Of a stretch of DNA of 45,109 nucleotides, positions 17,149-42,152 are shown piece by piece (the stretch's first letter is position 1; each line of letters begins with the position of its first letter). The stretch spans positions 1-45,109 of the forward strand of contig CALMVT010000071.1 in NCBI GenBank assembly GCA_937873175.1, in the 5' to 3' direction. The position numbers and the translations under genes are program-made. The notes under the pieces are model-generated. The model did no database searches. It worked only from the letters and a program-made list of their open reading frames with translations, and was not told where the DNA came from. Source of the stretch: an uncultured Acetobacteraceae bacterium. GTDB lineage: Bacteria > Pseudomonadota > Alphaproteobacteria > Acetobacterales > Acetobacteraceae.

Positions 17149-18609
17149 TCAAGCAGGTCCGGGGCTATGGCGCCGATGCTGCCGGCCCAAGCGCCAACGC
17201 CGCACCGCGCCGATCGGCTCCGCCGGTTCGTGTTCGTCGCCAATGTTTCCCGGCAGATCGCAAAGGGCACGATGGCTGGATGCGTCCACGGCGCTTGCTT
17301 CGGCCGGCCAAGCGGCGACATCACGGGCCAACTCAGCTGCTACCGCTTTGGTCGCGTTCAGGAAGATGCGGTCAAGCCCCGGCCGCAGCCGACCCGGCAA
17401 GTTGAACGGGGCGAGGAAACCATCCGCTTCATAACCGCCCTCCAGGCGCTGGTGCTCGGCAGGCCAGTAGCCGAATACGTCGCCGACGTAGCCAACCGGC
17501 CAAAGGGCCGGGTCGTCCAGCAGGAGCCGCAGCATCGAGCAAGGCTCGGCCGAGACGGCCAGGATGTCATACATCGCCCCGGCCCGCAGGCGCTGAAAGC
17601 CGACCGGACGCGGCGGACCGTCGTAGCCCGCAGTGACGTCCCGCAACGGGACCTCCACCAAAGCGCCGGCCAGGGGACCTGTGAGGGGCGCCGGCGGGCG
17701 GCGCTGCAGCTCGTCCAGCCCGGCCGCGACCGCGCCAGCCAGCCGGTCGATCCAGGCTTCCCATCTCGGCAGGTCGAAGCTGTCGAAGTTCGGCCCGTAC
17801 ACCAAGGCCTGGCGCATCCGGTGCTCGCGCGTGCGCCGGTCCGGCACGTCGGGGCGCAGATCGCCCGCAAAGCCCTGAAGGAACAGCATCGGCGCTTGCG
17901 TGCCCAACCGCTCGCGCACCGCGCCAACATAATCCGAGGAGGCCGCAGCGATGTCAGGCGATCCCGTTGGATGACATGACGCCGACCAGAGCAGGGCAAC
18001 CCGGCTGCTGCGGGGGTCAAGCAGTTCAAGCAGTCGCAATCCTTGGTCCGTCGCCCGGCTCCGCGCCGGCGCCATGACGACGCCCCCAAACGCCAGGCGT
18101 CTCCGCTCGACATGCGGGAGCCACCACAGCCGGCGGCGGTAAACGGCGCCGTCCCACGGAACCCTGATGGCACGGAAATGCACCGGCCGCTTTTCCTGCT
18201 GGGCCACGGCGCTCAGAAGCGTGCAGCAACGGTCGCAAAGCCAATCGAGGTAGGCGCGATCCACGGCGCCAAGCGCGGGCTTGGTGGCGTCAACGGGTGG
18301 CGCGAAATGGGTATGCGATGCGGCGAGCAGCAGATTGCGCCGGTCAATGCCCAACTCGCGTTGTGCGAACAAGCGCAGCCGCTCCGTCAGTTCCGGACCG
18401 GCGAACAGCAGATCCAGGCTGACCAACGCTTGTTGACGGCCCCGGCCATCGGCCAGCACAAGGGCGCCCGCCTGCAATCTGTGCCCCACGCGCCCTGCCA
18501 GGACGGAACGGTTCTCGTAGCCGGCCAGGAATGCCGGCCGGCCAGGGGTGATGTCAACGGTGCCGGCCGCGCCGAGGATAGGCTCCAGACACGGACCGGT
18601 CTTTGTCAT
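17149..18609 (-). CDS. Neutral/alkaline ceramidase-like hydrolase
   Basis: 486 residues, resembling the N-terminal domain of the neutral/alkaline non-lysosomal ceramidase superfamily: GTVDITPGRPAFLAGYENR, ALVLADGRGRQQALVSLDLL, LLAASHTHFAPPVDAT (a likely metal-ligand HTH motif), ASCHPTG, SSDYVGAVRERLG and FLQGFAGDLRPD. Such enzymes are zinc amidases; members in polysaccharide loci have unknown substrates, so true ceramidase activity is not claimed. The start at ATG 18609 follows AGGTAGG; no signal peptide is seen. The last 40 residues are Arg-rich and may be a degraded end. It is transcribed away from the EPS block and separated from it by 1.1 kb. Confidence 0.7.
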   Translation of the reverse strand: MTKTGPCLEPILGAAGTVDITPGRPAFLAGYENRSVLAGRVGHRLQAGALVLADGRGRQQALVSLDLLFAGPELTERLRLFAQRELGIDRRNLLLAASHTHFAPPVDATKPALGAVDRAYLDWLCDRCCTLLSAVAQQEKRPVHFRAIRVPWDGAVYRRRLWWLPHVERRRLAFGGVVMAPARSRATDQGLRLLELLDPRSSRVALLWSASCHPTGSPDIAAASSDYVGAVRERLGTQAPMLFLQGFAGDLRPDVPDRRTREHRMRQALVYGPNFDSFDLPRWEAWIDRLAGAVAAGLDELQRRPPAPLTGPLAGALVEVPLRDVTAGYDGPPRPVGFQRLRAGAMYDILAVSAEPCSMLRLLLDDPALWPVGYVGDVFGYWPAEHQRLEGGYEADGFLAPFNLPGRLRPGLDRIFLNATKAVAAELARDVAAWPAEASAVDASSHRALCDLPGNIGDEHEPAEPIGAVRRWRLGRQHRRHSPGPA

Positions 18610-18655
18610 CCTACCTGCTTCCATCCCAGCTTCGGCCAGCCATGCCGCCGCTTCC

Positions 18656-18671
18656 GCCCGCCCGGGCGGGC
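18656..18671. repeat. 16-bp perfect GC palindrome
   Basis: gcccgcccgggcgggc is a perfect palindrome 46 bases upstream of the ceramidase-like start codon. It may act in that gene's leader or simply reflect base composition. Confidence 0.5.
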
Positions 18672-19345
18672 AGGCGAGACGCCCGTTGCACACAAGAACA
18701 TTGAACGAAAAAACGGAGAGAGGCCACTTTCTTTTCATACTTCGGCGCGTGCGGGACGGCCCCTTGCGCGGTCCGGTGCGGGTGTTCCTTGCCGCTCGGG
18801 CTGAACCGGGTCAGACAGCACCATGCAGCGTGACTGCCGCCCGGAACATGGCGCCGGACGCACCCGCGTGGCATGGCGGAAGTAACCGGGGCGCGGCACG
18901 CGCGCTCGATCCGGGGCCGCCATAGGCAAGGACGAACCAGTGATTGCCATGGGTTGCGCGCACGGATCAGCTTCGGGTGACCGGGGCGGAAGCGGAGGCC
19001 CCTGCTGACCGGTGCGCCTGAGCGTCAGATTGTGGCCGCGCGCCGGGGCGCAGGGTTCCCGCGCGAGCGAAAACCTCAGGCGGGCATTTGGTTTCGATTG
19101 CCTGGACGAAGCTCATCAAGAACAGAGCAGTCACGGAAAATATTGGCCTAAAACTTCTGGGGACTCCGGGAGGGCCACAGTAATTAATATAAACGAATCT
19201 GAAACTTTTGAGTCTTTTTGGATTTCGTGTAATAAAATCAGATCATAATTGAGTCAAAATTCCTAATTTTTCTGTTGTAATCGTAAGTGTTCTGCTAAAA
19301 ATGCCCTGATTTCCCGGTGTTTACGTGATTCTCCACGCAACAGGA

Positions 19346-19374
19346 TTGCACAAATCATGGTGCGGGCATGATAC
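19346..19374 (+). promoter_or_regulatory. Candidate sigma70 promoter
   Basis: TTGCAC (19346-19351) and TGATAC (19369-19374) are separated by exactly 17 bases, just right of the AT-rich island. Transcripts would start near 19381, about 45 bases before the small ORF at 19425 and 385 bases before the first beta-helix gene. Confidence 0.45.
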
Positions 19375-19424
19375 CTCTGGCTCTGCGCGACCAATCACGG
19401 GCGCACAGGCAGAGGGGAGAAAAA

Positions 19425-19622
19425 ATGTTCACGGCAACGAACGCGCTAATTTTCGAAAACAGATCTGCATGGTTAGAGACAAACAATGATTGCGACGGCG
19501 CATGGTCGCCCGCTTGCGGTCGTGTTTCAGGCCAGCCCGCTGAGCCGCATGCGATCCAGAACAGCATCGTTTCAGGTACAAACAAGCTCAGCGGAGCAAG
19601 TCTTATCGAAGAAACGGGGTAA
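19425..19622 (+). CDS. Possible small protein, unknown
   Basis: A 65-residue frame beginning MFTATNALIFENRS, with the strong ribosome binding site GAGGGGAGA at 19412-19420 and the candidate promoter about 50 bases upstream. No domain, signal peptide or membrane segment is seen. Its composition (Asn, Ser and Ile-rich) differs from the Arg/Ala-rich shadow frames typical of this genome. It could be a real small protein or a translated leader ahead of the beta-helix gene. Confidence 0.35.
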   Translation: MFTATNALIFENRSAWLETNNDCDGAWSPACGRVSGQPAEPHAIQNSIVSGTNKLSGASLIEETG

Positions 19623-26138: not shown

Positions 26139-27161
26139 TCAGCCGAGCCGAAGCACCGACCTCGCCGCCGTGCGCAGCCGAAGGAGCGGGGACGCCGTGC
26201 AGGTCAGCATGAAATAAGGCGTCTGCACGCCGCCGAAATGGCGGAACACGGATTCAACGCCCTCGATCATGCTGCCTTCGAAGTCAAACCGGCGCGTTTG
26301 GCGCGCGGCGTTCCGGATGCTTTCCTGCACCAGCAGGGCCAGAGCGCCTGAATGGGCGAACTCCGGGTCGGTGGCGTTGATCAGGCTGTAGGCGCCCTCC
26401 GGCCCCCAGACGGTGAACAGGGCGGACAGGACGCACCCCTTTTCGTCCCGGGCATGGATGACGCTGCCGGCGCCCTGCGCATGCACGGCGGCATGGACCC
26501 GGCGAAACAGCGCGAGCGGATAGCTGATGCTCCGGCCGCGTTTGCGCAAGACGTTCCGGTGGAAGTGCCAGAACCCGTCCGCGTCCATGCCGAAGCCGAC
26601 CTGCACCCGCTCCTGCGCCCGGCGAATGCTCCGTTTCTTTTCTGGCTGGAACCCCGCGAAGACGCCGTCGAGATCCGTCAGGTCGAGCGTGTAGGTGTAG
26701 GCCGTGCTCTGGCTGAAGCCGGCCCAGTGAAAGGGCAGCCAGTTCGTCAGGCGGGAGTGGCAGGCCATCACGAGGTGGTCCGCCGGCGGCAGGCGCGCGA
26801 TCATGTCGGTCAGCACCCGCTTTTCCAGGCTGAGCCGTTTGGCATGCGAAAGGCCGGGCGGGTAGGCGATAAAGGGTCCCAGGATAGGGGTAAGCTGCGG
26901 CATGGTGACGATGGAGAACGGACCCCGCCGCTTCAAGTAGAAGGGCAGCGCCGCGACAATGCGGCCACCGTCCTCGAACAGCACGACATGCCACTCGCCC
27001 TTGTCGCACACCGCGTCCAGCCACCACCCGCGCGAGAAGATCGGGATGTCGGGCTGTCCGGCGCTCCAGCGGAGATACCGGTCCTTGCCGCTTTCCATCG
27101 CCGGTTCCCGCGCACCCGGCCACAAGAAGCGCCGCGGCGCGACGACGAGGCCGGGTCTCAT
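26139..27161 (-). CDS. FemAB/BioF2-like GNAT acyltransferase
   Basis: 340 residues of the BioF2-like acetyltransferase family (GNAT fold, FemAB-related). Visible are FQPEKKRSIRRAQE at the start of the C-terminal GNAT half, SALFTVWGPEGAYSLINATDP and FDFEGSMIEGVESVFRHFGG, which is the family's typical ending. The first half (residues about 25-150) is a second, degenerate GNAT module. It probably acylates a sugar amino group or transfers an amino acid to the polysaccharide. The start at ATG 27161 overlaps the previous stop (ATGA). It is the last gene of the minus-strand unit and converges with the second beta-helix gene, leaving only 15 bases between stops. Confidence 0.78.
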   Translation of the reverse strand: MRPGLVVAPRRFLWPGAREPAMESGKDRYLRWSAGQPDIPIFSRGWWLDAVCDKGEWHVVLFEDGGRIVAALPFYLKRRGPFSIVTMPQLTPILGPFIAYPPGLSHAKRLSLEKRVLTDMIARLPPADHLVMACHSRLTNWLPFHWAGFSQSTAYTYTLDLTDLDGVFAGFQPEKKRSIRRAQERVQVGFGMDADGFWHFHRNVLRKRGRSISYPLALFRRVHAAVHAQGAGSVIHARDEKGCVLSALFTVWGPEGAYSLINATDPEFAHSGALALLVQESIRNAARQTRRFDFEGSMIEGVESVFRHFGGVQTPYFMLTCTASPLLRLRTAARSVLRLG

Positions 27162-28018
27162 GCGGACCTTTCCGGCATCGAGGCTGGGGCCTTGAGTCGC
27201 CCTTTGCGCTCCGCATTGGCGCGAATCGCGCAGCGCACGGCATAGGCGACACCCTCGGCCGCACGCTCGACGTCGAGGCGCAGGTTCTCGCGCCGGTTGG
27301 CCCGCCATTGCCGCGGATGCAGGAGCAGGTAGATGCAGGCCGCCCCCTCGGCGACCGAAGCGGCCGGCGCCCCTGGAACCCACCACGCCGGCGGCGGCGC
27401 ATCGGCGAAGCGCGCCCGCACGGGGGCGTTGAGCCAATCGTCGTAGGCTTCGGCCAGCAGGCCGAAGCGCGCGCGCAATGCCGCATCGACGACGGAATGG
27501 TTGAACACGCGCAGCCTGCGGTTCACCCAATCGCCATGCGAGGCGATCGTGAGCGGAGAACGGCCGGCGACTTCGGCGAACCGCTCGATGTTCCGGGCGA
27601 GGTCGGTGCGGATGGCGTCGGCCCATGCGTCGATGTCGCCGCCGTTGCGCAGGCCGTGCCGCTTGGCAAACGTCGCAAGTTCCTCGTAATGGTATCCGAC
27701 CTCGCTGCCGCTGTCGGCGATCTCCCGCATCAAGCCGGGGTCGAGGGTGCGGAGGCGGAAGTAATAGGTGGTGCGCAGGCCCAATGCGCGCTCGATCCGG
27801 AACATGTCGCGCGCCGTCGCGACGTCGCTGTCAACATCGGTCCGCACGATGCAGCAGCGCGGCGGCAAGCGTCCCAACGCCCCCTGCCGCGCGAGGTCGG
27901 CGACGGTCAGGAAGCTGTAGCCTTGCGCAACCAGGTCCCGGAGCAGTTGTTCGTATTCCGGTAGGCGGGACGGCATCAGGAAGTTCTGATACGCGCGGAA
28001 CATGGCTGCTTTCATCAT
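27158..28018 (-). CDS. NodB-like polysaccharide deacetylase-type protein
   Basis: 286 residues. The metal-binding aspartates are in RTDVDSD (Asp61, Asp63), which replaces the canonical HDVD/TFDDG, and the later motif SGSEVGYHYEEL supplies His110, as in divergent NodB-homology proteins found in polysaccharide loci. The protein probably deacetylates an N-acetyl sugar or is an inactive relative. The start at ATG 28018 gives an ATGA overlap with the upstream gene, and its own stop overlaps the next start. This tight coupling suggests that deacetylation and re-acylation by the neighbouring acyltransferases act on the same sugar. Confidence 0.65.
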   Translation of the reverse strand: MMKAAMFRAYQNFLMPSRLPEYEQLLRDLVAQGYSFLTVADLARQGALGRLPPRCCIVRTDVDSDVATARDMFRIERALGLRTTYYFRLRTLDPGLMREIADSGSEVGYHYEELATFAKRHGLRNGGDIDAWADAIRTDLARNIERFAEVAGRSPLTIASHGDWVNRRLRVFNHSVVDAALRARFGLLAEAYDDWLNAPVRARFADAPPPAWWVPGAPAASVAEGAACIYLLLHPRQWRANRRENLRLDVERAAEGVAYAVRCAIRANAERKGRLKAPASMPERSA

Positions 28019-30239: not shown

Positions 30240-31268
30240 CTACGGGGGCAGGCTTGCGGACCCAGCCATCTCCGGCCCGCGTGGCGCCATCGCCTTAGCT
30301 TCGAATACATGGTGGCGATACCAGCGAAAGGTTCGCTCCAGGCCGTCGCGCAGGGTGACCTGCGGGATAAAGCCGGTTGCGGCGACGGCCAGGCCGATAT
30401 CCGGCTGGCGGCGGATGGGAGACCCCGCGGTGTCGGGGCCAGGCACGAGACGGAGCGGCCTGCCCACGGTTTCTGCCACCAGCTTGGCCAGGCCGCTGAT
30501 AGAAACTTCCTCCGCGGTTCGTCCAACGTTGAACGTGCCGCCCAACGCCGCCGGGGCGAGTGCCAGGCGGAGCATCAGCTCAACCGCGTCGTCAACGTAG
30601 CAAAAGGTCCGGCGATGGTCGCGCGAGTACACCGTCAGCTCGCCGAACAGCGGGGCCTGCCAGGCCCGGGCCAGCAGCTCGGGCACCACGTGCGCCATGC
30701 CCATGCGCGGGCCGTACACGTTGTGCGGCCTCACGATGGTGAACGGCACGCCGGCGCTGCGGCACAGCGCTTCTCCGTAGATTTTGGACAGCATGTAGGC
30801 AGTGCGCGGTTGCCCTGGATCGGCAATCGCGAGCGGCGTGCTTTCCGGGGTCGGGACGGCCATGCCGAAAGCGGCGAGGGTGCCTGCGTAAACCTCGCTG
30901 GTGGAAGGGAACACGAAGCGGCGAAGGGAGGGCTGCGCGCGGGCCCAGTCCAGCAGCGCCGACAACGCCGTCACGGAGCCGGCCAGCACGCGGTATGGCT
31001 GCTGCACGACGTTGCGCACGCCGACCACGGCGGCAAGGTGGAATATGTGGGTGCAGCCGTCGCCCAGCATGCCCAGCACCGCCGGGTCCGCCACGTTTCC
31101 GATTGTCAGGCGGTAGTGCGGGTGCGCCCGCAGCGCCTCGACCGCCGCGTCCACGCTGCCCCGCTGGGCGTTGTCAACGACATGGACGTCGAACCCTTCG
31201 GCCAGCAGGCGCGCCGCCAAGTGCTGGCCGATGAAGCCCAGACCCCCGGTGATCAGCGCGCGGTTCAC
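30240..31268 (-). CDS. NAD-dependent epimerase/dehydratase (extended SDR)
   Basis: 342 residues. The NAD-binding motif GGLGFIG is at 8-14, the catalytic residues are Ser/Thr in PSTSEVY (122-124) and Tyr158/Lys162 in YMLSK. RPHNVYGPRM and the DDAVE segment are typical of nucleotide-sugar epimerases, dehydratases and UDP-xylose-type decarboxylases. The exact product (for example 4-epimer or decarboxylated sugar) cannot be told. GTG start, overlapping the upstream dehydrogenase stop (GTGA at 31265-31268), so it may process that enzyme's uronic acid product. Confidence 0.85.
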   Translation of the reverse strand: MNRALITGGLGFIGQHLAARLLAEGFDVHVVDNAQRGSVDAAVEALRAHPHYRLTIGNVADPAVLGMLGDGCTHIFHLAAVVGVRNVVQQPYRVLAGSVTALSALLDWARAQPSLRRFVFPSTSEVYAGTLAAFGMAVPTPESTPLAIADPGQPRTAYMLSKIYGEALCRSAGVPFTIVRPHNVYGPRMGMAHVVPELLARAWQAPLFGELTVYSRDHRRTFCYVDDAVELMLRLALAPAALGGTFNVGRTAEEVSISGLAKLVAETVGRPLRLVPGPDTAGSPIRRQPDIGLAVAATGFIPQVTLRDGLERTFRWYRHHVFEAKAMAPRGPEMAGSASLPP

Positions 31269-32701
31269 AGCCCGGCCCCGCGGCCGACGCTCTCCACCCT
31301 GCAGCCCAGCGCGCGGAGCGCCTGGCGCTGCTCCCTGCTCAGCACGTCAAACGCATCGAGGAACAGCGGGCAGGACCTGGCGAGCCAGGCGGCGTAGTCG
31401 AATGAACGGTAGAACTGGTGCGGCACGGCCAGCACCACCGCATGGAGGCCGCCGGCGCACGGAACCTGGCGCGGCACCGCGACGCCGGCCTCCTGCCAAT
31501 GCTCGACCAGCGGGTCGTGCACCTGCAGCCCGGCGCCTTCGGCCTGCGCCGCGGCGTAGAAGTCGTATGACGGCGAATGCCGGGTATCGCCGACATCCTG
31601 CCGGTAGGTCAGGCCCAGCAACAGGATTTTGCCGCCGGCCAGGCTGCCGCCCAGCAGCGTCCGCAGGCGGTCCAGCGCGCGGCGCGGCGCGCGGCGGTTG
31701 ATCCGCACGGCAAGGCTGGCAAGCGGGAACTCCTGGTCCAGGCCGAGCACGTCACGCGCGCCCAGCTCGGCAAGCAAAGGGTCCTTGGTCAGGCAGTAGC
31801 CGCCGACCCCAAGGCCAGGCGTGCGCATGTTGCTGTGGCTGGGCCGCACACGGATCGGGGCCGCCACGTCGAACAAGTCCACGCCCGCCGCCTCGGCAAA
31901 GGCAGCGAACTCCTCCATGAGCGCGATGGTGACGGCGCGATAGGTGTTCTCCAGCACCTTGCCGAGTTCCGAGGCGGTCGTGCTGGCCAGGCGGGTCAGC
32001 CGGCAGCGCCGCGGGTCCAGGACGCTGCGCAGGAAGCGTTCGCACGCATCCGCCGAGCGCGCGTCGCGCCCGGCATAAACCCGCGGCATGCCGAGGATCG
32101 AGTCTAGGTAGGCGTTGCCCGGCATCACCCGCTCGTAGCAATGGGCGAGGCGGAAACCGTCATGCGGGAGGCCACGACGCTGCAGCTCCTCAATCAGAAT
32201 GGGTGCCACGATTGTCTCGGTCGCCCCGGGCGGAACCGTGGTTTCGACGATCACCAGCGCGTCAAACTGCATGTGCCGGCCGATGGCGCGGATGGCGCTT
32301 TGGAACGGCGTCAGCGCCAGGGCGGGCACGTCCAGGCGCACGTCCAGCGGCACGTTGACGATCACGATGTCGGCCCCGGCAAAGGCCGCCGCGTCGGCGC
32401 AGGCCACCAGGTTGCCCGCTTCGCGTGCCTGGCGCAGCCCGCCGGCCAAGCTGCCATCCGTGCTCGGGAACGGGAACTCTCCCCGGTTAAGGGCGGCGAT
32501 GCGCCGGGCGCCCTCGGGCGTGGGCAGGTCCACCCCGACCACCCGATACGCCGGCTGGCCCTGCCCGTCGCGGGCGCTGGCCACCGCGACGCAAACGGCC
32601 GCACCGACGAAGCCCAGCCCCTGCACGCAGGCGACGGGCGCCTGCAAGCCGGACCGGATGGCTGGCGGCACTTCCTCCAGCATGGACGCGGCCTCATGCA
32701 T
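31265..32701 (-). CDS. Nucleotide-sugar dehydrogenase (UDP-glucose/GDP-mannose family)
   Basis: 478 residues, three-domain NAD-dependent dehydrogenase that oxidises C6 of a nucleotide sugar to a uronate. The dinucleotide site is VQGLGFVGAAV (27-37), the catalytic Lys248 and Asn252 are in LGKVLENTYRA, and the nucleophile is Cys303 in GVGGYCLTKDP, a variant of the usual GGHCIPxDP. It is clearly distinct from the WbpA-type enzyme at 40776, so the cluster makes two different uronic acids. The start ATG 32701 overlaps the upstream stop by 8 bases. Confidence 0.88.
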   Translation of the reverse strand: MHEAASMLEEVPPAIRSGLQAPVACVQGLGFVGAAVCVAVASARDGQGQPAYRVVGVDLPTPEGARRIAALNRGEFPFPSTDGSLAGGLRQAREAGNLVACADAAAFAGADIVIVNVPLDVRLDVPALALTPFQSAIRAIGRHMQFDALVIVETTVPPGATETIVAPILIEELQRRGLPHDGFRLAHCYERVMPGNAYLDSILGMPRVYAGRDARSADACERFLRSVLDPRRCRLTRLASTTASELGKVLENTYRAVTIALMEEFAAFAEAAGVDLFDVAAPIRVRPSHSNMRTPGLGVGGYCLTKDPLLAELGARDVLGLDQEFPLASLAVRINRRAPRRALDRLRTLLGGSLAGGKILLLGLTYRQDVGDTRHSPSYDFYAAAQAEGAGLQVHDPLVEHWQEAGVAVPRQVPCAGGLHAVVLAVPHQFYRSFDYAAWLARSCPLFLDAFDVLSREQRQALRALGCRVESVGRGAGL

Positions 32702-33440
32702 GGCGGTTGCGGCTCCCCAACGCCGCCGCACGGCCCGCATGCGGCAGATCAAGGCCGCCGGCCGGAAGGGGGGCGGCGATGCGTGGCGACCCCGAAAGCA
32801 GCCCAACGGCAGCCAGCGCGCCAAGGACCACCCAGCGGAGATCCGATCCCAGGGTCCGATGCGGGAAGTAGGCCAGGTCGATGCCGGCCTTTGCCGGAAA
32901 CAGCACCTCCCGGTAGAAGCGGTGCGGGTCCTCGTCGGCGGGATACATCAGGCACTCGTGGCGGAACAGCACCTGGTTGGGTCCGAACAGGCCGGGGGCG
33001 TAGTTCAGCAAACGACGAGCCTCGCCGGTGAAGCAACCGGCGAAGCCGAGCGTTTCCGGCCGTGGCCCGACCAGCGCCATCGAGCCGCCAAGCACGTTGC
33101 AAAGCTGCGGCAGCTCGTCGAGCTTGGTGCGTTCCAGCACCCGGCCCACGCGGGTCATGCGCGGGTCGTCTTTTAGGGTCACGGCCGGTCCGCCGGCGCT
33201 GCCATGCACGAACTTGCGGAACTTGTGCAGCCGGAACGGCCGCCCATGCCGCCCGATCCGGGTCTGCGAAAACAGCACCGGCCCGGGGCTGTCCAGGTAG
33301 ATGATGATGGCGATCGCCAGCATCAGCGGCGCTGCCAGCAGCAGCGCGACCGACGCCACCGCAACGTCCAGCGCACGCCGGACGGCAGCGTCCCCGCCGC
33401 GCCGCTGCGTCGGGGACCCCATATACATGGTAGAACTCAT
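32694..33440 (-). CDS. Polyprenyl-phosphate sugar transferase (initiating)
   Basis: 248 residues of the bacterial sugar transferase family (WcaJ/RfbP catalytic module), which attaches the first sugar-1-phosphate to undecaprenyl phosphate. A single membrane helix (about 22-50, with the DSPGPVLFSQTRIG motif following) and the catalytic FRLHKFRKF, GRVLERTKLDELPQLCNVLGG and MALVGPRPE motifs are present. It lacks the extra N-terminal helices of long WcaJ proteins. An additional hydrophobic C-terminal stretch (about 200-215) is unusual. The start ATG 33440 overlaps the upstream stop (ATGA) and has GGAG eight bases before it. Confidence 0.9.
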   Translation of the reverse strand: MSSTMYMGSPTQRRGGDAAVRRALDVAVASVALLLAAPLMLAIAIIIYLDSPGPVLFSQTRIGRHGRPFRLHKFRKFVHGSAGGPAVTLKDDPRMTRVGRVLERTKLDELPQLCNVLGGSMALVGPRPETLGFAGCFTGEARRLLNYAPGLFGPNQVLFRHECLMYPADEDPHRFYREVLFPAKAGIDLAYFPHRTLGSDLRWVVLGALAAVGLLSGSPRIAAPLPAGGLDLPHAGRAAALGSRNRHA

Positions 33441-34567
33441 CGGCGCACTCCAGGCCAGGCAAGCGAGCGCCGCAGCGCGTCGGCCACATGGACGACATCC
33501 TGCTCGGTCAGCTTCGGATGCAGCGGCAGGGTCAACTCGCGGCGGGCAAACGCTTCCGTCCGCGGCAACGACACCGATGGGCCTTTCTCACGGTAGAAGG
33601 AGAGGGTGTGGATCGGCGGGTAATGGACGGTGGTCTGCACCCCCGCATCGCGCATCAAAGCCATGATCCGGTCGCGATCCGTCATCTCCGGCAGGACGGC
33701 CGGCAAGATATGATAGGCCGAGGCGATGTTTCCGTTGGCGAACGGCACCTGCACGTCTGGGCAACGCTCCGCCAGCGCTTCCCAGTAGCAGCGCGTCAGC
33801 ATCGCCCGGCGGTCGTTCCATTTCGTCAAGGATTGCAGTTGCACCGAGCCGATGGCGGCGCGAAGCTCATCGAGCCGGTAGTTCCAACCCAACCGGGTCA
33901 CGTCGTATCCCGGGGTGCGCGTGTCTATGCGCTCCCGCGTGCTGCTGGTCATGCCGTGACCCCGCAACTGCCGCACAATGCTCAGCACGGCGGGATCGCG
34001 GGCGATGACCATGCCGCCCTCGGCGGTGGTCATGTTCTTGTTGCCGTAGAAGCTGAACACCGCGGCGTCGCCGAAGCTGCCGGCGCCGGGCGCGCCGGCG
34101 GCTTGCGCCGCATCCTCGATGAGCCTCAATCCTTTCGCGACGGCGAAGCCGCGCCAAGCCTCGCGGTCGGCAACCGCGCCGGCGTAGTGGACCACGACCA
34201 CCGCCCGGGTGCGTTCCGTGCAGCGGCACGCGGCGTCCTCTATCGAGATCAGCGGTCGGCCGGGGCCGTCGATGTCAACAAAGACCGGCGCCGCGCCGGC
34301 GTGCAGCACGCAGTTCGCCGTCGCGACGAAGCTGAGGGACGGCACCAGCACCGCGTCGCCGGGTCCGATCTCCAGGGCGGCCAGGGCCAGATGCAGTCCA
34401 GCGGTGCAGGAGTTCACCGCCACCGCGTCGTCGGCGCCGTGCGCGGCGGCGAAAGCGGCCTCAAAGGCGCGCACGCGGTCGCCCATGGTGATCCAGTTGG
34501 AAGCGATCACCGCGGCAAGAGCCGCCTTTTCCTGCTCTCCCAGGGTCGGCTCGCTCACCAGCAACAT
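33437..34567 (-). CDS. DegT/DnrJ/EryC1/StrS family aminotransferase
   Basis: 376 residues, PLP-dependent sugar aminotransferase that converts a keto-sugar nucleotide to an amino sugar. The PLP Lys177 is in FSFYGNKNMTTAEGGM and the partner Asp152 in LIEDAAQAAG. GYDVTRLGWNYRLDELRAAIG is the family signature. The start at ATG 34567 has a GGAGGACGG ribosome binding site. It is a different paralogue from the WbpE-type enzyme at 38051, so the cluster has two aminotransferases; its substrate might be a 3- or 4-keto sugar, not determined. Confidence 0.9.
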   Translation of the reverse strand: MLLVSEPTLGEQEKAALAAVIASNWITMGDRVRAFEAAFAAAHGADDAVAVNSCTAGLHLALAALEIGPGDAVLVPSLSFVATANCVLHAGAAPVFVDIDGPGRPLISIEDAACRCTERTRAVVVVHYAGAVADREAWRGFAVAKGLRLIEDAAQAAGAPGAGSFGDAAVFSFYGNKNMTTAEGGMVIARDPAVLSIVRQLRGHGMTSSTRERIDTRTPGYDVTRLGWNYRLDELRAAIGSVQLQSLTKWNDRRAMLTRCYWEALAERCPDVQVPFANGNIASAYHILPAVLPEMTDRDRIMALMRDAGVQTTVHYPPIHTLSFYREKGPSVSLPRTEAFARRELTLPLHPKLTEQDVVHVADALRRSLAWPGVRR

Positions 34568-34598
34568 CCGCCGTCCTCCCGTCCCGAAGCACTGCGGC

Positions 34599-35351
34599 TC
34601 AGGCCACCAGATCCGCCGCAAAGGCGAGCGGCGCGCACTCGTAGGCCGGAACCTCCTCGTCCCACGCCAGGCCCTGCGCCTTTTGGAAATCCTCCACCCG
34701 GCCGATATCCAGCCAGAGTCCGTCATGCTGGAACGAGCGCACGGGCAGGCCGTGCCCGAGCATGCAGTGCATTAGGTCGTCGAAACCGAACGGCACGCCG
34801 GTCGGGATGTGGTCCAGGATGGACGGCTCCATGCAGTAGATGCCGGTGCTGACCAGGTGCGTCAGCAATGGCTTTTCCCGAAAAGTGACGACGGAGCCAT
34901 CGCGCTCCTCCAGGATGCCGAAATCGATCTGCACGGTGCGCCGGGTGGTGGCGATGGTGAGCGGGCCGCCATGCCGCCGATGCGCGGCGACAAAGGCGTT
35001 CAAGTTCAGGTCGGTCAGCACGTCCCCATTCAGCATGAGGAACGTGTCGTCCAGCTTGCCGCGCAACAGGCTGAGCGCGCCCACCGTGCCAAGCGGTTCC
35101 GCTTCCTGCGTGTAGGTGATGCGCAGGTCCCATTGCGAGCCGTTTCCGCAGACGGTGCGGATCAGGTGGCCGAGATACCCGGTGGTGACGTAAGCCTCTC
35201 GGATTCCGTTGCGCCGCAGCCACTTCAGCAGCATCTCGAGCACCGGCTTGGTTCCAACCGGCATCAGCGGCTTGGGAAGCACCATGGTGTAGGGACGGAG
35301 GCGCGTGCCTTTCCCTCCCGACTGGATCACAGCCTTCACGGCCCCTTCCAT
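34599..35351 (-). CDS. Sugar-1-phosphate nucleotidyltransferase
   Basis: 250 residues, single-domain nucleotidyltransferase making an NDP-sugar. GGKGTRLRPYT (12-22) binds NTP, KPLMPVGTKPVLE follows, FLMLNGDVLTDL contains the metal-binding Asp and VSTGIY supports product binding. There is no C-terminal left-handed helix. The sugar and the base cannot be told. It is the first gene of the distal EPS unit; its GGGAGAGG ribosome binding site and an AT-rich promoter region lie upstream. Confidence 0.86.
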   Translation of the reverse strand: MEGAVKAVIQSGGKGTRLRPYTMVLPKPLMPVGTKPVLEMLLKWLRRNGIREAYVTTGYLGHLIRTVCGNGSQWDLRITYTQEAEPLGTVGALSLLRGKLDDTFLMLNGDVLTDLNLNAFVAAHRRHGGPLTIATTRRTVQIDFGILEERDGSVVTFREKPLLTHLVSTGIYCMEPSILDHIPTGVPFGFDDLMHCMLGHGLPVRSFQHDGLWLDIGRVEDFQKAQGLAWDEEVPAYECAPLAFAADLVA

Positions 35352-38050: not shown

Positions 38051-39187
38051 TCAATCCGCGACGGCCAGCGCGGCGGCGACGCGCGCCTGGTCCTCCGGTC
38101 CGAGATAAGGGTGCATCGGCAGGCTCAGCACGGTCTCGGCAAGCCGCTCCGACACCGGCAGCCCGTTGCCGGCCACCGGAAAGCCCCTGTAGGCGGTTTG
38201 CCGGTGCAGCGGGCAGCGGTAATAAACCATGGACGGGATGCCGTGCCGCTGCAGCCGCTGCTGCGCGGCATCGCGCGGGGCCGTGCGAATGGTGTAAAGC
38301 GCCCAGGCCGATCGCGTCCCGTCCATCACCGCCGGCGGCACGGCCTCCGGCGGCAGAATCGCGGCGTAGCGCGCGGCCACCGCTTCCCGCGCCGCGAGTT
38401 CGTCCGGGAAGATTGCGAGCTTCTCCAGCAGGATCGCGGCTTGAATGGTGTCCAAGCGGCCGTTGATGCCGACGCGGACGTTGTCATACTTGTCGCGCCC
38501 TTGGCCATGCACCCGCAGCGAGCGGATCGTTTCCGCCAGCGCATCATCGTCGGTGAACACCGCGCCGCCGTCGCCGTAGCAACCCAGCGGCTTGGACGGG
38601 AAGAAACTGGTCGTCGTGATGTCGCCGATGCGACCGACCCGGCGCCCTCCATAGCTCCCGCCGAACGACTGCGCGGCGTCGCTTATCAGCCACAGCCCGT
38701 TCCCGTGGGCGACCTGCTCGATGGCGGCATACTGGCAGGGCTGGCCAAACAGATCGACGCTGATCACGCCGCGCAGCCTCAGGCCGAGCGTCGCCGCGGT
38801 GGCCACCGCGGCCTTGAGGCTTTCGGGGTCGAGGTTGAAGCTGTCCTCGCGCACGTCGGCGAAGACCGGCACGCCGCCGAGCAGGCACACCATCTCCGCC
38901 GTGGCGCAGAAGGTGAAGCTGGGCACGACCACCGCATCTCCCGGGCGCAGGCCCTCGGCCATCAACGCGAGCAGCAGCGCGTCCGTGCCGCTGGCGCAGG
39001 TGATGGCGTGGCGCGCGCCGCAGAACCCGGCGAGCGCCTGCTCTAGCGCCCCGACCTCCGGTCCCATGACATACTGGCCGTGGTCGAGCACGCGCGCGAC
39101 CGCCGCGTCGATCTTGCCGCGCAGCGCCTGTTGCTGGCGCGCCAGGTCGATGAAGGCGATCTGGTCCGGCGGCGTCACGTCGTTCAT
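38051..39187 (-). CDS. wbpE: UDP-2-acetamido-2-deoxy-ribo-hexuluronate aminotransferase (WbpE-like)
   Basis: 378 residues, DegT/DnrJ family. Asp170 is in LISDAAQSFGG and the PLP Lys199 in SFFPSKPLGCYGDGG. In the WbpABDE route it converts UDP-3-keto-GlcNAcA to UDP-3-amino-GlcNAcA, using glutamate. The assignment rests on the neighbours as well as sequence: the start overlaps the stop of the WbpB-WbpD fusion gene (39184-39187), which in turn overlaps wbpA. The C-terminus (MHPYLGPEDQARV) is normal. Confidence 0.88.
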   Translation of the reverse strand: MNDVTPPDQIAFIDLARQQQALRGKIDAAVARVLDHGQYVMGPEVGALEQALAGFCGARHAITCASGTDALLLALMAEGLRPGDAVVVPSFTFCATAEMVCLLGGVPVFADVREDSFNLDPESLKAAVATAATLGLRLRGVISVDLFGQPCQYAAIEQVAHGNGLWLISDAAQSFGGSYGGRRVGRIGDITTTSFFPSKPLGCYGDGGAVFTDDDALAETIRSLRVHGQGRDKYDNVRVGINGRLDTIQAAILLEKLAIFPDELAAREAVAARYAAILPPEAVPPAVMDGTRSAWALYTIRTAPRDAAQQRLQRHGIPSMVYYRCPLHRQTAYRGFPVAGNGLPVSERLAETVLSLPMHPYLGPEDQARVAAALAVAD

Positions 39188-40779
39188 GCCACGTTTCGTG
39201 CCTCCTCAAGCCAGGCCAGGCCACCCTGCCCGTCAGGCGCGTAGCGCTCGCGGGTTTCCGGGCAGGTCAGCGCCTCGGTCAGCCGGTGCCCGGCGCGGCT
39301 GACCCAGCCGACCCGCCGTGCCGGGTTCCCGACCACCAGGGCGTGCGCGGGCACGTCGCGCGTCACCACGGCGCCCGCGCCCACCAGGCAGTAACGGCCG
39401 AGCGAATGGCCGCAGATAACCGTCGCGTTGGCGCCGATCGTGGCGCCAAAGCCCACCGGCGTCGGCCGGAACTCGCTTTTGCGCTCGATCTCCGCCCGCG
39501 GGTTGGCGACGTTGGTGAACACGCAGGACGGGCCGCAGAACACCGCGCCGTCCAGCGACACGCCGCAATACAGGGACACGTTGTTCTGGATCTTGCAGCC
39601 CGGCCCGACATGCACGTCCGGCCCGATCACGACGTTCTGCCCGATCACGCAACCCGGCCCGATGCGCGATCCCTTCAGCACGTGGCTGAAATGCCAGATC
39701 CGCGTGCCGTCCCCGATCTCGCAGCCGGCATCCACCCAGGCCGTCTCGTGCGCGAAATACCGCGGCGGCGGGGCGGGGTCCAGGCTGGCCGGGGCGCCTG
39801 ACGCCATCGCGCGCCGGGCGGCGTCCAGCACGCGCAACACGCCGATCCCCTCGCGCGCATCGGTGCGCGGTTGTGCGCCGTCCCGGATGCAGGACAGGAA
39901 ATGCCGGCATTCCTGCCGCAGCGGCTCGTCCGGCAGCAGCGGCACCGGCTGAGCGTCGGCGCGCGTGGGCGTCGGAAGGCCGCCCTGCCACTCGATCCGA
40001 TGCGGGTAGTGGAGCAGCTTGTGTGTCCAGGGCTGTCCGTCGTCGAACACCGCCATGCCGTTTTCGCCGACCACGACCAGCTTCTGCTCCTTCGCCGGGT
40101 GGAGCCAGGACACGAAGACGCTCGCGCTGACGCCGCCCGGAAAACGCAGGTGCGCGGTCGCCACGTCGGCGATCCGGTTATGCAGGCAGCAATGCCCGAT
40201 CGCCTCCACGCGGTCCGGCAGCTCGCCGGTCAGCGCCAGGATCATGGAGATATCGTGGGGCGCGAAGCTCCAGAACACGTCTTCCTCGCGGCGGATGCGG
40301 CCCAGGCTCAGCCGGGCGGATTGGATGAACCGAAGCCGGCCCAACGCCCCGGCGTGGACGAAGTCCCGCAGCTTGAGAAAAGCGGGGTGATACTGCAGCA
40401 GGTGCCCCACCATCAGCACGCGCCCCCGCGCCGCGGCGGCCTCCGCCACTTGCATCGCGCTTGATACGTCGAGCGCGAGCGGCTTTTCGACGAACACGTG
40501 CTTGCCCGCAGCGAGGGCGCGCAATGCCAGAACGGCGTGCGTCGCGGCGGGCGTGGCCAACGCGACCGCAGTGATCGCCGGGTCGTCCAGGATCGCGTCG
40601 AAACCGAGGAGCGGCACCGCATGGTCCCGCGCCATCTCCCGGGCGGACGTTTCCGCCTCGTCGCAAACCGCGGCGAGCGCGCCAAGCGCGTGGAAATTGC
40701 GCACCAGGTTGCGCCCCCAGTGCCCGCATCCGATGGCCGCCACGCGCGGCGGCCCGGCGCGGCCCAGTCCCGCATTCAT
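39184..40779 (-). CDS. Bifunctional WbpB (dehydrogenase) - WbpD (N-acetyltransferase) fusion
   Basis: 531 residues with two enzymes. Residues 1-335 form a Gfo/Idh/MocA oxidoreductase: AIGCGHWGRNLVR, catalytic EKP at 98-100 and the APHDISM region near 173-179. Residues about 340-500 form a left-handed beta-helix acetyltransferase with hexapeptide repeats: WHFSHVLKGSRIG, IQNNVSLYCGVSLDG and GPSCVFTNVANPRAEIERK. The first matches WbpB/WlbA, which oxidises C3 of UDP-GlcNAcA; the second matches WbpD/WlbB, which acetylates the 3-amino group. Between these steps the aminotransferase acts. No stop or frameshift separates the halves. The ATGA overlaps with both neighbours support coordinated production. 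Confidence 0.9.
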   Translation of the reverse strand: MNAGLGRAGPPRVAAIGCGHWGRNLVRNFHALGALAAVCDEAETSAREMARDHAVPLLGFDAILDDPAITAVALATPAATHAVLALRALAAGKHVFVEKPLALDVSSAMQVAEAAAARGRVLMVGHLLQYHPAFLKLRDFVHAGALGRLRFIQSARLSLGRIRREEDVFWSFAPHDISMILALTGELPDRVEAIGHCCLHNRIADVATAHLRFPGGVSASVFVSWLHPAKEQKLVVVGENGMAVFDDGQPWTHKLLHYPHRIEWQGGLPTPTRADAQPVPLLPDEPLRQECRHFLSCIRDGAQPRTDAREGIGVLRVLDAARRAMASGAPASLDPAPPPRYFAHETAWVDAGCEIGDGTRIWHFSHVLKGSRIGPGCVIGQNVVIGPDVHVGPGCKIQNNVSLYCGVSLDGAVFCGPSCVFTNVANPRAEIERKSEFRPTPVGFGATIGANATVICGHSLGRYCLVGAGAVVTRDVPAHALVVGNPARRVGWVSRAGHRLTEALTCPETRERYAPDGQGGLAWLEEARNVA

Positions 40780-42152
40780 GCCCGTGCCACCACGCGGAGG
40801 GCCTCGCCACCGCCGACTCGCACCATCCGGTTGCGGGTATCGACGATGAGCCGGGAAAAGCGCAGCAGCATTTCGTAGTCGATGCAGTCGTGATCGGTCA
40901 CGATGACCACCGCGTCGTAGCGCGACAGAAAGGCGGGCTCGAACGGCACCGACGCCTTGCCGGCCAGCGCCAGATGCTGCCGGGTGGGCGGAATGACCGG
41001 GAAATGCGGATCGTAGTAGTCAACCTTGCCGCCGGCGCGGTCCAGCATGTCCATGATGGTCAGCGCCGGGCTTTCCCGCATGTCGTCCACGTTCTTCTTG
41101 TAGGCGATTCCCACCACGAGGGTGCGGGCGCCGCACAGCCCCTTGCCAAACCGCCGGTCCAGCTCCTCCCGCACCCGCTCCACGACGTATCGGGGCATTC
41201 CCGTGTTCACCTCGCCGGCAAGCTCGATGAAGCGGGTGCAGATGCCCAGCTCGCGGGCCTTCCAGGTCAGGTAAAACGGGTCGATCGGGATGCAGTGGCC
41301 GCCCAGGCCCGGCCCCGGGTAGAACGGCATGTAGCCGAACGGCTTGGTTTTGGCTGCTTCCACCACCTCGAACATGTCCACGCCGATCTCCGCGAACACC
41401 AGCTTGAGCTCGTTCACCAGGGCGATGTTCACCGCCCGGAAGATGTTCTCGGTCAGCTTGACCGCCTCGGCCGTTTCCAGCGACGAGACCGGCACGGTGG
41501 CCGGCACGAGCTGGCGATACAGGGCGGAGGCGACGCAAAGCGCCCCCTCGCCGTCCCCGGCCACCACCTTGGGGATCAGCGCGGTGTTGAACTCGGCGTT
41601 GCCCGGGTCCTCCCGTTCCGGCGAGTAGGCCAGGAAGAAGTCGGTGGACGACCGCAGGCCGGAGGACTCCAGGATGGGCTTGAGCACGTCGCGGGTGGTG
41701 CCGGGATAGGTGGTGGACTCCAGGATGACGAGCTGGCCGCGCCGCAAGATTCCGGCGAGCATCCGCCCGGTCTGTTCGACGTAGGACAGATCCGGCTCGC
41801 GGTGCGGGCCGAGCGGGGTGGGCACGCAGATTAGCACCGCATCCGCCGCGGCGAGCGCGCCGGGATCGGCCGTGGCCGTGAAGCGCGCGTGCTGCAGCGC
41901 CGCCGCCACCCGGGCCGGGCGGATATGGGTGAACGGGCTGTCAGCGTCGTTGAGGCGGCGCACCCTGTCCGCGTCGAGGTCGTAGCCGATGACCCGGAAC
42001 CCGGCCTCGCAGGCGCAAAGCGAGAGCGGCAGCCCGACATAGCCCAGGCCGACGATCCCGATCACCGCGTCCCGGCTTTCCAGCCGGGTCAGCAGCGCCT
42101 CGTGGCTGGCTTCAGGCGCCGCCGACGCCCAGGTGTTGGCGGCGAAGTTCAT
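40776..42152 (-). CDS. wbpA: UDP-N-acetylglucosamine 6-dehydrogenase (WbpA-like)
   Basis: 458 residues, UDP-glucose/GDP-mannose dehydrogenase family. It oxidises C6 of UDP-GlcNAc to UDP-GlcNAcA with two NAD. The N-terminal GIVGLGYVGLPLS motif is at 32-44; Lys232 and Asn236 (AVKLTENIF) and the nucleophile Cys287 (GGHCIPIDP) are in place. WbpA is chosen over WecC because the next genes encode WbpB-WbpD and WbpE. First gene of the minus-strand unit; its promoter region carries an inverted repeat (42235-42265). The ATGA overlap with the fusion gene is at 40776-40779. Confidence 0.9.
   Translation of the reverse strand: MNFAANTWASAAPEASHEALLTRLESRDAVIGIVGLGYVGLPLSLCACEAGFRVIGYDLDADRVRRLNDADSPFTHIRPARVAAALQHARFTATADPGALAAADAVLICVPTPLGPHREPDLSYVEQTGRMLAGILRRGQLVILESTTYPGTTRDVLKPILESSGLRSSTDFFLAYSPEREDPGNAEFNTALIPKVVAGDGEGALCVASALYRQLVPATVPVSSLETAEAVKLTENIFRAVNIALVNELKLVFAEIGVDMFEVVEAAKTKPFGYMPFYPGPGLGGHCIPIDPFYLTWKARELGICTRFIELAGEVNTGMPRYVVERVREELDRRFGKGLCGARTLVVGIAYKKNVDDMRESPALTIMDMLDRAGGKVDYYDPHFPVIPPTRQHLALAGKASVPFEPAFLSRYDAVVIVTDHDCIDYEMLLRFSRLIVDTRNRMVRVGGGEALRVVARA

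Follow-up and report, generated by a model that had tools for sequence, protein, structure and literature searches.

The closest described systems are WbpB and WbpD of Pseudomonas aeruginosa and WlbA and WlbB of Bordetella, which carry out two steps in the synthesis of UDP-ManNAc3NAcA (uridine diphosphate-diacetamido-mannuronate), with the aminotransferase WbpE acting in between. In the portion of PMC10622841 that was available, the pathway order is given as WbpA, WbpB, WbpE, WbpD and WbpI. The enzymes for the two steps are separate proteins in both of these systems. In comparison, they are joined in one polypeptide in the stretch of DNA analyzed here, the 45,109-nucleotide contig CALMVT010000071.1 of an uncultured Acetobacteraceae bacterium (assembly GCA_937873175.1; referred to as the window). 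The fusion gene is located at 39184..40779 on the minus strand, and encodes a protein of 531 amino acids with a GnnA/WbpB-like nucleotide-sugar 3-dehydrogenase followed by a WbpD-type N-acetyltransferase. Judged from its sequence, this is probably a bifunctional enzyme of UDP-GlcNAc3NAcA (UDP-diacetamido-glucuronate) synthesis, with 3-oxidation and N-acetylation on one polypeptide and WbpE as a separate protein.

The joining of two enzymes in one protein, first reported in a preliminary description of the window, is real and is confirmed here. The frame is open for 531 codons from its ATG, and there is no internal stop codon, between the halves or within them. In the protein, a short linker joins a Gfo/Idh/MocA sugar dehydrogenase (residues ~12-328) to a left-handed β-helix N-acetyltransferase (residues ~338-514), with Pfam matches to GFO_IDH_MocA (12-126), GFO_IDH_MocA_C3 (134-243) and Hexapep (from 352). 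An assembly artefact is unlikely, as the complete Azospirillum ramasamyi plasmid NZ_CP029830.1 has the fusion as a single coding sequence (CDS; 65% identity), and as the fusion is also present in Arenibaculum pallidiluteum (67% identity) and found at 58 distinct loci, the window included. An assembly error or a missed stop was rejected on the basis of this plasmid and the many genomes that have the fusion. A phage origin was rejected as well, as none of 24 matching phage records covered more than 80% of the query.

All 51 aligned fusions share seven residues (Lys99, His175, His363, His366, Asn399, Asn400 and Arg428), the alignment comprising 51 of the 58 fused proteins (L049, L079, L082, L092, L096, L097 and L100 were left out). 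Neither half is thus without its conserved residues, and both look intact for catalysis. Lys99 and His175, in the N-terminal half, are presumably the catalytic pair, as known from the Gfo/Idh/MocA family. The gene shares 4 nucleotides with each of its neighbors, an overlap that was recognized from the outset: its start overlaps the stop of a 6-dehydrogenase gene (40776-40779), and its stop overlaps the start of an aminotransferase gene (39184-39187). The three genes are thus probably translated together.

The C-terminal half (residues ~338-531, 39187..39768, minus strand) clearly belongs to the WbpD/WlbB acetyltransferases, both by sequence and by fold, and its original assignment as WbpD stands. 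It matches 3mqg with 209.6 bits (residues 7-178 of 195), while the runner-up chain has 110.6 bits. A structure search finds 3mqh, with an E value of 6.5e-19, TMt of 0.91, root mean square deviation (rmsd) of 1.6, and 56% identity. The title of 3mqh describes WlbB of Bordetella petrii with coenzyme A (CoA) and a UDP-3-amino sugar, and WlbB (3mqg/3mqh) is of the same family as this half. N-acetyltransferases of this superfamily act as trimers, according to the part of PMC8040287 that was accessible. A cage-like assembly of the fusion protein would be speculation.

The acetyltransferase of several loci (L024, L022, L023 and others) is closed by a four-cysteine tail, G[WY].C.C ... C..C, that resembles a small zinc site. 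This tail is found in 29 of the 58 fused proteins, 7 of the 30 encoded by adjacent genes (a set in which L025 and L135 are one gene), and 3 of the 16 C-only proteins. The window protein and those of L021 (Arenibaculum) and L002 retain just one of the four cysteines.

The N-terminal half (residues ~12-328, 39796..40746, minus strand) has a Rossmann fold and a C-terminal α/β domain, as indicated by Pfam, PDB matches and the predicted model. Its fold and its Lys and His residues, Lys99 in an EKP motif and His175, match those of Gfo/Idh/MocA sugar dehydrogenases, of which GnnA and WlbA are the kin named by function. Against PDB sequences, it scores 99.0 bits with 3c1a, an unnamed putative oxidoreductase and the sole chain above GnnA, 92.2 bits with 7bvj (entitled GnnA, UDP-GlcNAc 3-dehydrogenase, GlcNAc being N-acetylglucosamine), and 41.8 bits with 3q2k (entitled Bordetella pertussis WlbA with NADH and UDP-GlcNAcA). 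A WlbA-type protein from one of the surveyed loci (L041), in comparison, has 254 bits with 3q2k. The identification of this half as WbpB in the preliminary description is thus not upheld as it was stated. By sequence, it is not an orthologue of the characterized WbpB/WlbA but a nucleotide-sugar dehydrogenase by kinship, and the label WbpB is an assignment by context.

Structure alignment of the N-terminal half gives 30% identity, 1.8 Å and a Z score of 38.3 for GnnA, and 21%, 2.7 Å and 35.9 for WlbA. The Z score of GnnA is tied with those of several other family members in the VIA-align list. With many members at similar Z scores (35 to 38), the fold alone cannot separate GnnA from WlbA, and telling these relatives apart appears to be a matter of sequence identity and the tree.

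In a quick tree of 46 rows, made without bootstrap, the fusion clade (34 rows, from 22 of the 58 fused and 12 of the 28 adjacent ones), the WlbA-type proteins (6) and the GnnA-type proteins (6) each lie on one side of a branch, with support of 92, 100 and 99, respectively. Long branches meet in this tree, which therefore does not fix where the fusion clade belongs with respect to GnnA and WlbA. The GnnA-type rows are so named from motif and position rather than from assay. Three of them (L015, L019 and L020) were chosen because they have the HDLDLV and EKP motifs, a selection that presupposes their His and Lys and not their Asp. Five WlbA-type rows are named by a low score with the fusion model and by grouping with L041, the only one compared with 3q2k.

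The residue four positions before the conserved His is Ser171 in the window protein and Asp in GnnA. Ser is found here in 33 of the 34 rows of the fusion clade (Asn in one) and in 50 of the 51 aligned fusions (Asn in one), while all six GnnA-type rows have Asp. One of the halves might be just a structural passenger, as would be the case if such a replacement made the dehydrogenase inactive. However, all six WlbA-type rows have Asn at this position, as does Bordetella pertussis WlbA, the structure of which was solved with NADH and UDP-GlcNAcA, and the Asp is therefore not required. Ser171 is thus no argument for an inactive enzyme and, with Lys99 and His175 invariant, a passenger half is very improbable. 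A simple pattern, which misreads some rows, finds 6 Asp and 18 Ser among 28 N-halves encoded by adjacent genes, and 9 Asp and 9 Ser among 19 N-only proteins. The N-terminal half might also represent a UDP-sugar 3-dehydrogenase subfamily of its own, the third beside those of WlbA and GnnA, marked by Ser where these have Asn or Asp. Its fusion to a trimeric acetyltransferase would then build a large pathway-organizing oligomer, possibly with a changed order of oxidation. We regard this proposal as doubtful.

The two genes that overlap the fusion are of the kinds expected for this pathway, and the neighbors of the N-terminal half are thus of wbpA, wbpE and wbpD type, as in the context of WbpB/WlbA. 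The upstream gene (40776..42152, minus strand) encodes a nucleotide-sugar 6-dehydrogenase, WbpA-like by context, that matches TIGR03026 with 405 bits (cut-off 189.8), an assignment at the subfamily level, the finest that the models allow. The downstream gene (38051..39187, minus strand) encodes a WbpE-type aminotransferase of the DegT/DnrJ/EryC1/StrS family, as had been proposed. Its closest PDB chain named by function is P. aeruginosa WbpE (3nu7, 347.4 bits), and an unnamed DegT-family chain (4qgr) scores higher, at 400.5 bits.

In the reading that we favor, the N-terminal half would oxidize C3 of a UDP-GlcNAc-type sugar with NAD+ (nicotinamide adenine dinucleotide). The neighboring aminotransferase, as a separate protein, would aminate the resulting 3-keto sugar, and the C-terminal half would then N-acetylate the C3 amine using acetyl-CoA. 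C6 would be oxidized by the adjacent 6-dehydrogenase, in the simplest case ahead of the steps of the fusion. The architecture, the homology of both halves, the conserved residues, the gene context and the wide, interleaved distribution are observed directly, and both activities, their substrates, the order of the steps and the flexibility of the linker are what we infer.

WbpI, the last enzyme of the comparison pathway, is a 2-epimerase. No match to its family (PF02350) was found in the genome of the window, while 11 of 14 control genomes were positive. The product is therefore likely to be a gluco sugar, which fits the favored reading, and UDP-diacetamido-glucuronate, the product named in the preliminary description, is plausible.

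Several observations weigh against this reading. The sugar-side motif of the N-terminal half, GHLLQYHPA, resembles that of GnnA (GHIKRVHPA) and not that of WlbA (QNRRN), and this half groups apart from the WlbA-type proteins in the 46-row tree, so that UDP-GlcNAc may be its substrate in place of UDP-GlcNAcA. In addition, the stored flanking sequences include a 6-dehydrogenase gene at only 9 of the 58 fused loci, as compared to 34 of 58 for a wbpE-like gene; most flanks do not exceed about 1.5 kb, and both counts are lower bounds. The steps may therefore be ordered differently, with a GnnA-like N-terminal half oxidizing C3 of UDP-GlcNAc first, amination and acetylation giving UDP-GlcNAc3NAc, and the 6-dehydrogenase acting last. 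This alternative draws on the same GHxxxxHPA motif and scarcity of 6-dehydrogenase genes, on the closer relationship of this half to GnnA than to WlbA by sequence and by structure alignment, and on its best NCBIfam match, an archaeal UDP-GlcNAc 3-dehydrogenase (NF040723; 135.6 bits, below the cut-off of 450 bits). The available part of PMC2913515, on archaeal GlcNAc3NAcA genes, does not decide between the two orders.

On the other hand, the C-terminal half closely resembles WlbB (3mqh), which acts in the uronic acid pathway according to the accessible text of PMC10622841, and the aminotransferase is close to WbpE. Moreover, the 6-dehydrogenase gene directly precedes the fusion in the window, Arenibaculum and Azospirillum, and the GnnA-type rows form a group of their own. 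The clues to the substrate thus conflict, with a GnnA-like sugar-side motif in the N-terminal half and a WlbB-like C-terminal half, and by sequence this N-terminal half may act on either UDP-GlcNAcA or UDP-GlcNAc. The reordered pathway is possible, though less probable than synthesis through UDP-GlcNAcA.

The trio of 6-dehydrogenase, fusion and aminotransferase genes is found again in Arenibaculum and on the Azospirillum plasmid, which speaks for the favored reading. Arenibaculum has the 6-dehydrogenase, fusion, wbpE, wzy and glycosyltransferase genes in the order of the window. The Azospirillum plasmid has a similar gene set in another overall order, and its fusion is annotated merely as 'Gfo/Idh/MocA family oxidoreductase'. 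A few genes downstream of that fusion, there is a second Gfo/Idh/MocA and DegT pair with no fused acetyltransferase (17221-19439 of locus L145, corresponding to 358036-360254 of NZ_CP029830.1).

The two halves are connected by a linker at about residues 329-337 (39769..39795, minus strand; block 331-340 of the model), the length of which is variable among the homologues. Measured between the edges of the model matches, it ranges from 8 to 35 residues, with a median of 14, in 57 of the 58 fusions. An AlphaFold model of the monomer, built from 51 sequences of the window and related loci, has a mean predicted local distance difference test (pLDDT) score of 93.6 and a predicted template modeling (pTM) score of 0.73, its pairwise error not having been seen. 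The inner blocks with mean pLDDT below 80 are the linker (331-340, 77) and an acetyltransferase loop (421-430, 75). The model fits two well-formed domains on a loose, flexible tether, with no fixed mutual orientation.

This arrangement bears on the suggestion, made together with the first report of the fusion, that it implies a complex holding WbpE, in which the 3-keto intermediate would pass to WbpE without being released. The gene order and the 4-nucleotide overlaps are consistent with such a scaffold, and the step between the two fused ones belongs to the enzyme that uses the keto sugar, as described in the part of PMC10622841 that was available. However, a linker of 8 to 35 residues and a pTM score that is low next to the mean pLDDT agree better with domains free of a fixed orientation, within the limits of a monomer model. 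A frame with both halves and WbpE was sought as a triple fusion and not found among 12 loci picked for their long reported frames. Where a frame at these loci far exceeds its matches, the surplus is mostly upstream of the dehydrogenase match, and one frame (G816) has 855 amino acids in the survey and 611 when the locus is read.

The history of the fusion also argues against channeling. In a tree of the N-terminal half with 108 non-outgroup rows (58 fused), the fused state needs 12 changes. It needs 11 in a tree of both halves (89 rows). In a tree of the C-terminal half, it needs 10 when the fused proteins are set against adjacent ones and 11 when they are set against all. The starred branches alone force at least 4 changes in each tree, and fused and separate genes interleave. 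These are quick trees without bootstrap, and the counts do not tell the direction of change. Left out of them were the duplicates (L043-L046, L085, L093 and L105), the partly masked L028, L135, which is identical to L025, L064, which is truncated at the end of a contig, and, from L011-L020, seven weak loci. With 10 to 12 switches between the two states and the persistence of separate adjacent relatives, the fusion does not carry the implication of a WbpE-holding complex, and channeling is improbable.

The separate relatives suggest how the fusion may have arisen. At L026, the gene order is 6-dehydrogenase, N-half, C-half and wbpE, with the halves separate, and L027 likewise has a separate adjacent pair in the order of the fusion. 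Two other genomes (G152 and G257) encode the halves in neighboring but distinct frames, at loci that have wbpA- and wbpE-like genes as well. Since the two genes of many separate pairs stand side by side in the order of the fusion, the simplest way to fuse or split them is the loss or gain of one stop codon. Most simply, neighboring operon genes would have been joined by loss of the intervening stop. With its flexible linker, the fusion would keep two non-consecutive steps coupled in their expression and stoichiometry. Adjacency is itself labile, as more distant relatives (37.8% identity) on the Rhizobium plasmid NZ_CP092349.1 have the acyltransferase first. Ten further loci were read: nine have the dehydrogenase and acetyltransferase as separate frames, and one (L156) has the acetyltransferase only. 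At five of these ten loci (L147 and L150-L153), a WlbA-type dehydrogenase (57-68 bits with the model of the fusion N-half) adjoins a separate wbpD, and no WlbA-type fusion was found among these five.

The survey of spread that had been proposed was carried out, with a fusion defined as a full-length match without internal stop. The best few candidates of each genome were scored, and all the counts are therefore lower bounds. The fusion is present in at least 19 of 385 alphaproteobacterial genomes, including that of the window, and at least 12 of 299 genomes of a phylum sample, some of which are common to both sets. In a 13th genome of the phylum sample (G539), both halves are two matches inside one frame. 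For the phyla of individual genomes, the counts are at least 44 of 247 (Syntrophaceae), 2 of 151 (Armatimonadetes) and 6 of 145 (Omnitrophota), while no full-length fusion was found among the best few candidates of each of 198 genomes in the phylum of the Parabacteroides genome (Bacteroidota sample).

Matches to both halves with one or two inner stops were also observed. There are three such genomes in the alphaproteobacterial survey (G116, G152 and G257); four cases in the Syntrophaceae phylum (G737 and G839, plus G838 and a second G829 locus, where the match ends at position 483); six in the Parabacteroides phylum (G1107, G1127, G1148, G1159, G1225 and G1233); and seven in the Omnitrophota phylum (G693, G1388, G1397, G1400, G1418, G1427 and G1434), where G1397 has a fused copy in addition. 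The stop in G839 lies at an edge, as one open frame (L092) holds both halves.

In the family of the window itself, none of 39 genomes has a full-length match (35 by the best E value per genome and 4 from the alphaproteobacterial survey), and the nearest relatives found are in Azospirillaceae. Transfer or repeated loss is therefore likely. The fusion is common and widespread, mostly ordinary, and has been made or lost repeatedly.

The gene content of the window places the fusion in a polysaccharide cluster. Downstream of the aminotransferase are genes for a Wzy_C protein, a glycosyltransferase, a nucleotidyltransferase and a second DegT-family aminotransferase, and further downstream those for a sugar transferase, a second UDP-sugar dehydrogenase, an epimerase and a polysaccharide-synthesis membrane protein. 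With this second dehydrogenase and second DegT-type aminotransferase (31265-32824 and 33437-34726, both on the minus strand), at least one further modified sugar is probably made. The cluster also contains a frame of 495 residues (26139-27626, minus strand) with a C-terminal Acetyltransf_6 (GNAT) domain.

A protein that is publicly labeled 'Gfo/Idh/MocA family oxidoreductase' is thus one of many two-enzyme proteins, probably for diacetamido-uronate synthesis, with a dehydrogenase half that differs from the textbook WbpB. The fused and separate relatives are a natural set for asking whether joining non-consecutive steps alters flux. No description of a WbpB-WbpD fusion was found in the titles and abstract beginnings of open-licence papers, which is weak evidence of absence, and neither 'fusion' nor 'fused' is used in the available portion of PMC4031482.

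The N-terminal half is of another Gfo/Idh/MocA subfamily than WlbA (21% identity), and its closest solved relative named by function is, by sequence, GnnA of Acidithiobacillus ferrooxidans (7bvj/7bvk; 30%). GnnA is a stand-alone enzyme with a role in lipid A, and is not known to be followed by a WbpD. For the fusion as a whole, Chantigian, Thoden and Holden reportedly described a bifunctional ketoisomerase/N-acetyltransferase of Shewanella denitrificans in 2013, presumably the protein of PDB entry 4mzu ('WxcM-like protein'). The acetyltransferase part of 4mzu matches the C-terminal half with 110.6 bits, and would make it a homologue of that part of the Shewanella enzyme if 4mzu is that enzyme. 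There are differences, however. The match is N-terminal in 4mzu (residues 11-151 of 312) and C-terminal in the window fusion, and the partner domain is a ketoisomerase rather than a dehydrogenase. No ketoisomerase domain is found in the window fusion by Pfam, which has only Gfo/Idh/MocA and hexapeptide families, plus LbH_EIF2B below its cut-off. An aminotransferase acts between the two steps of the Shewanella enzyme as well. With an N-acetyltransferase and another nucleotide-sugar enzyme likewise in one polypeptide, it is a precedent for the fusion protein of the window.

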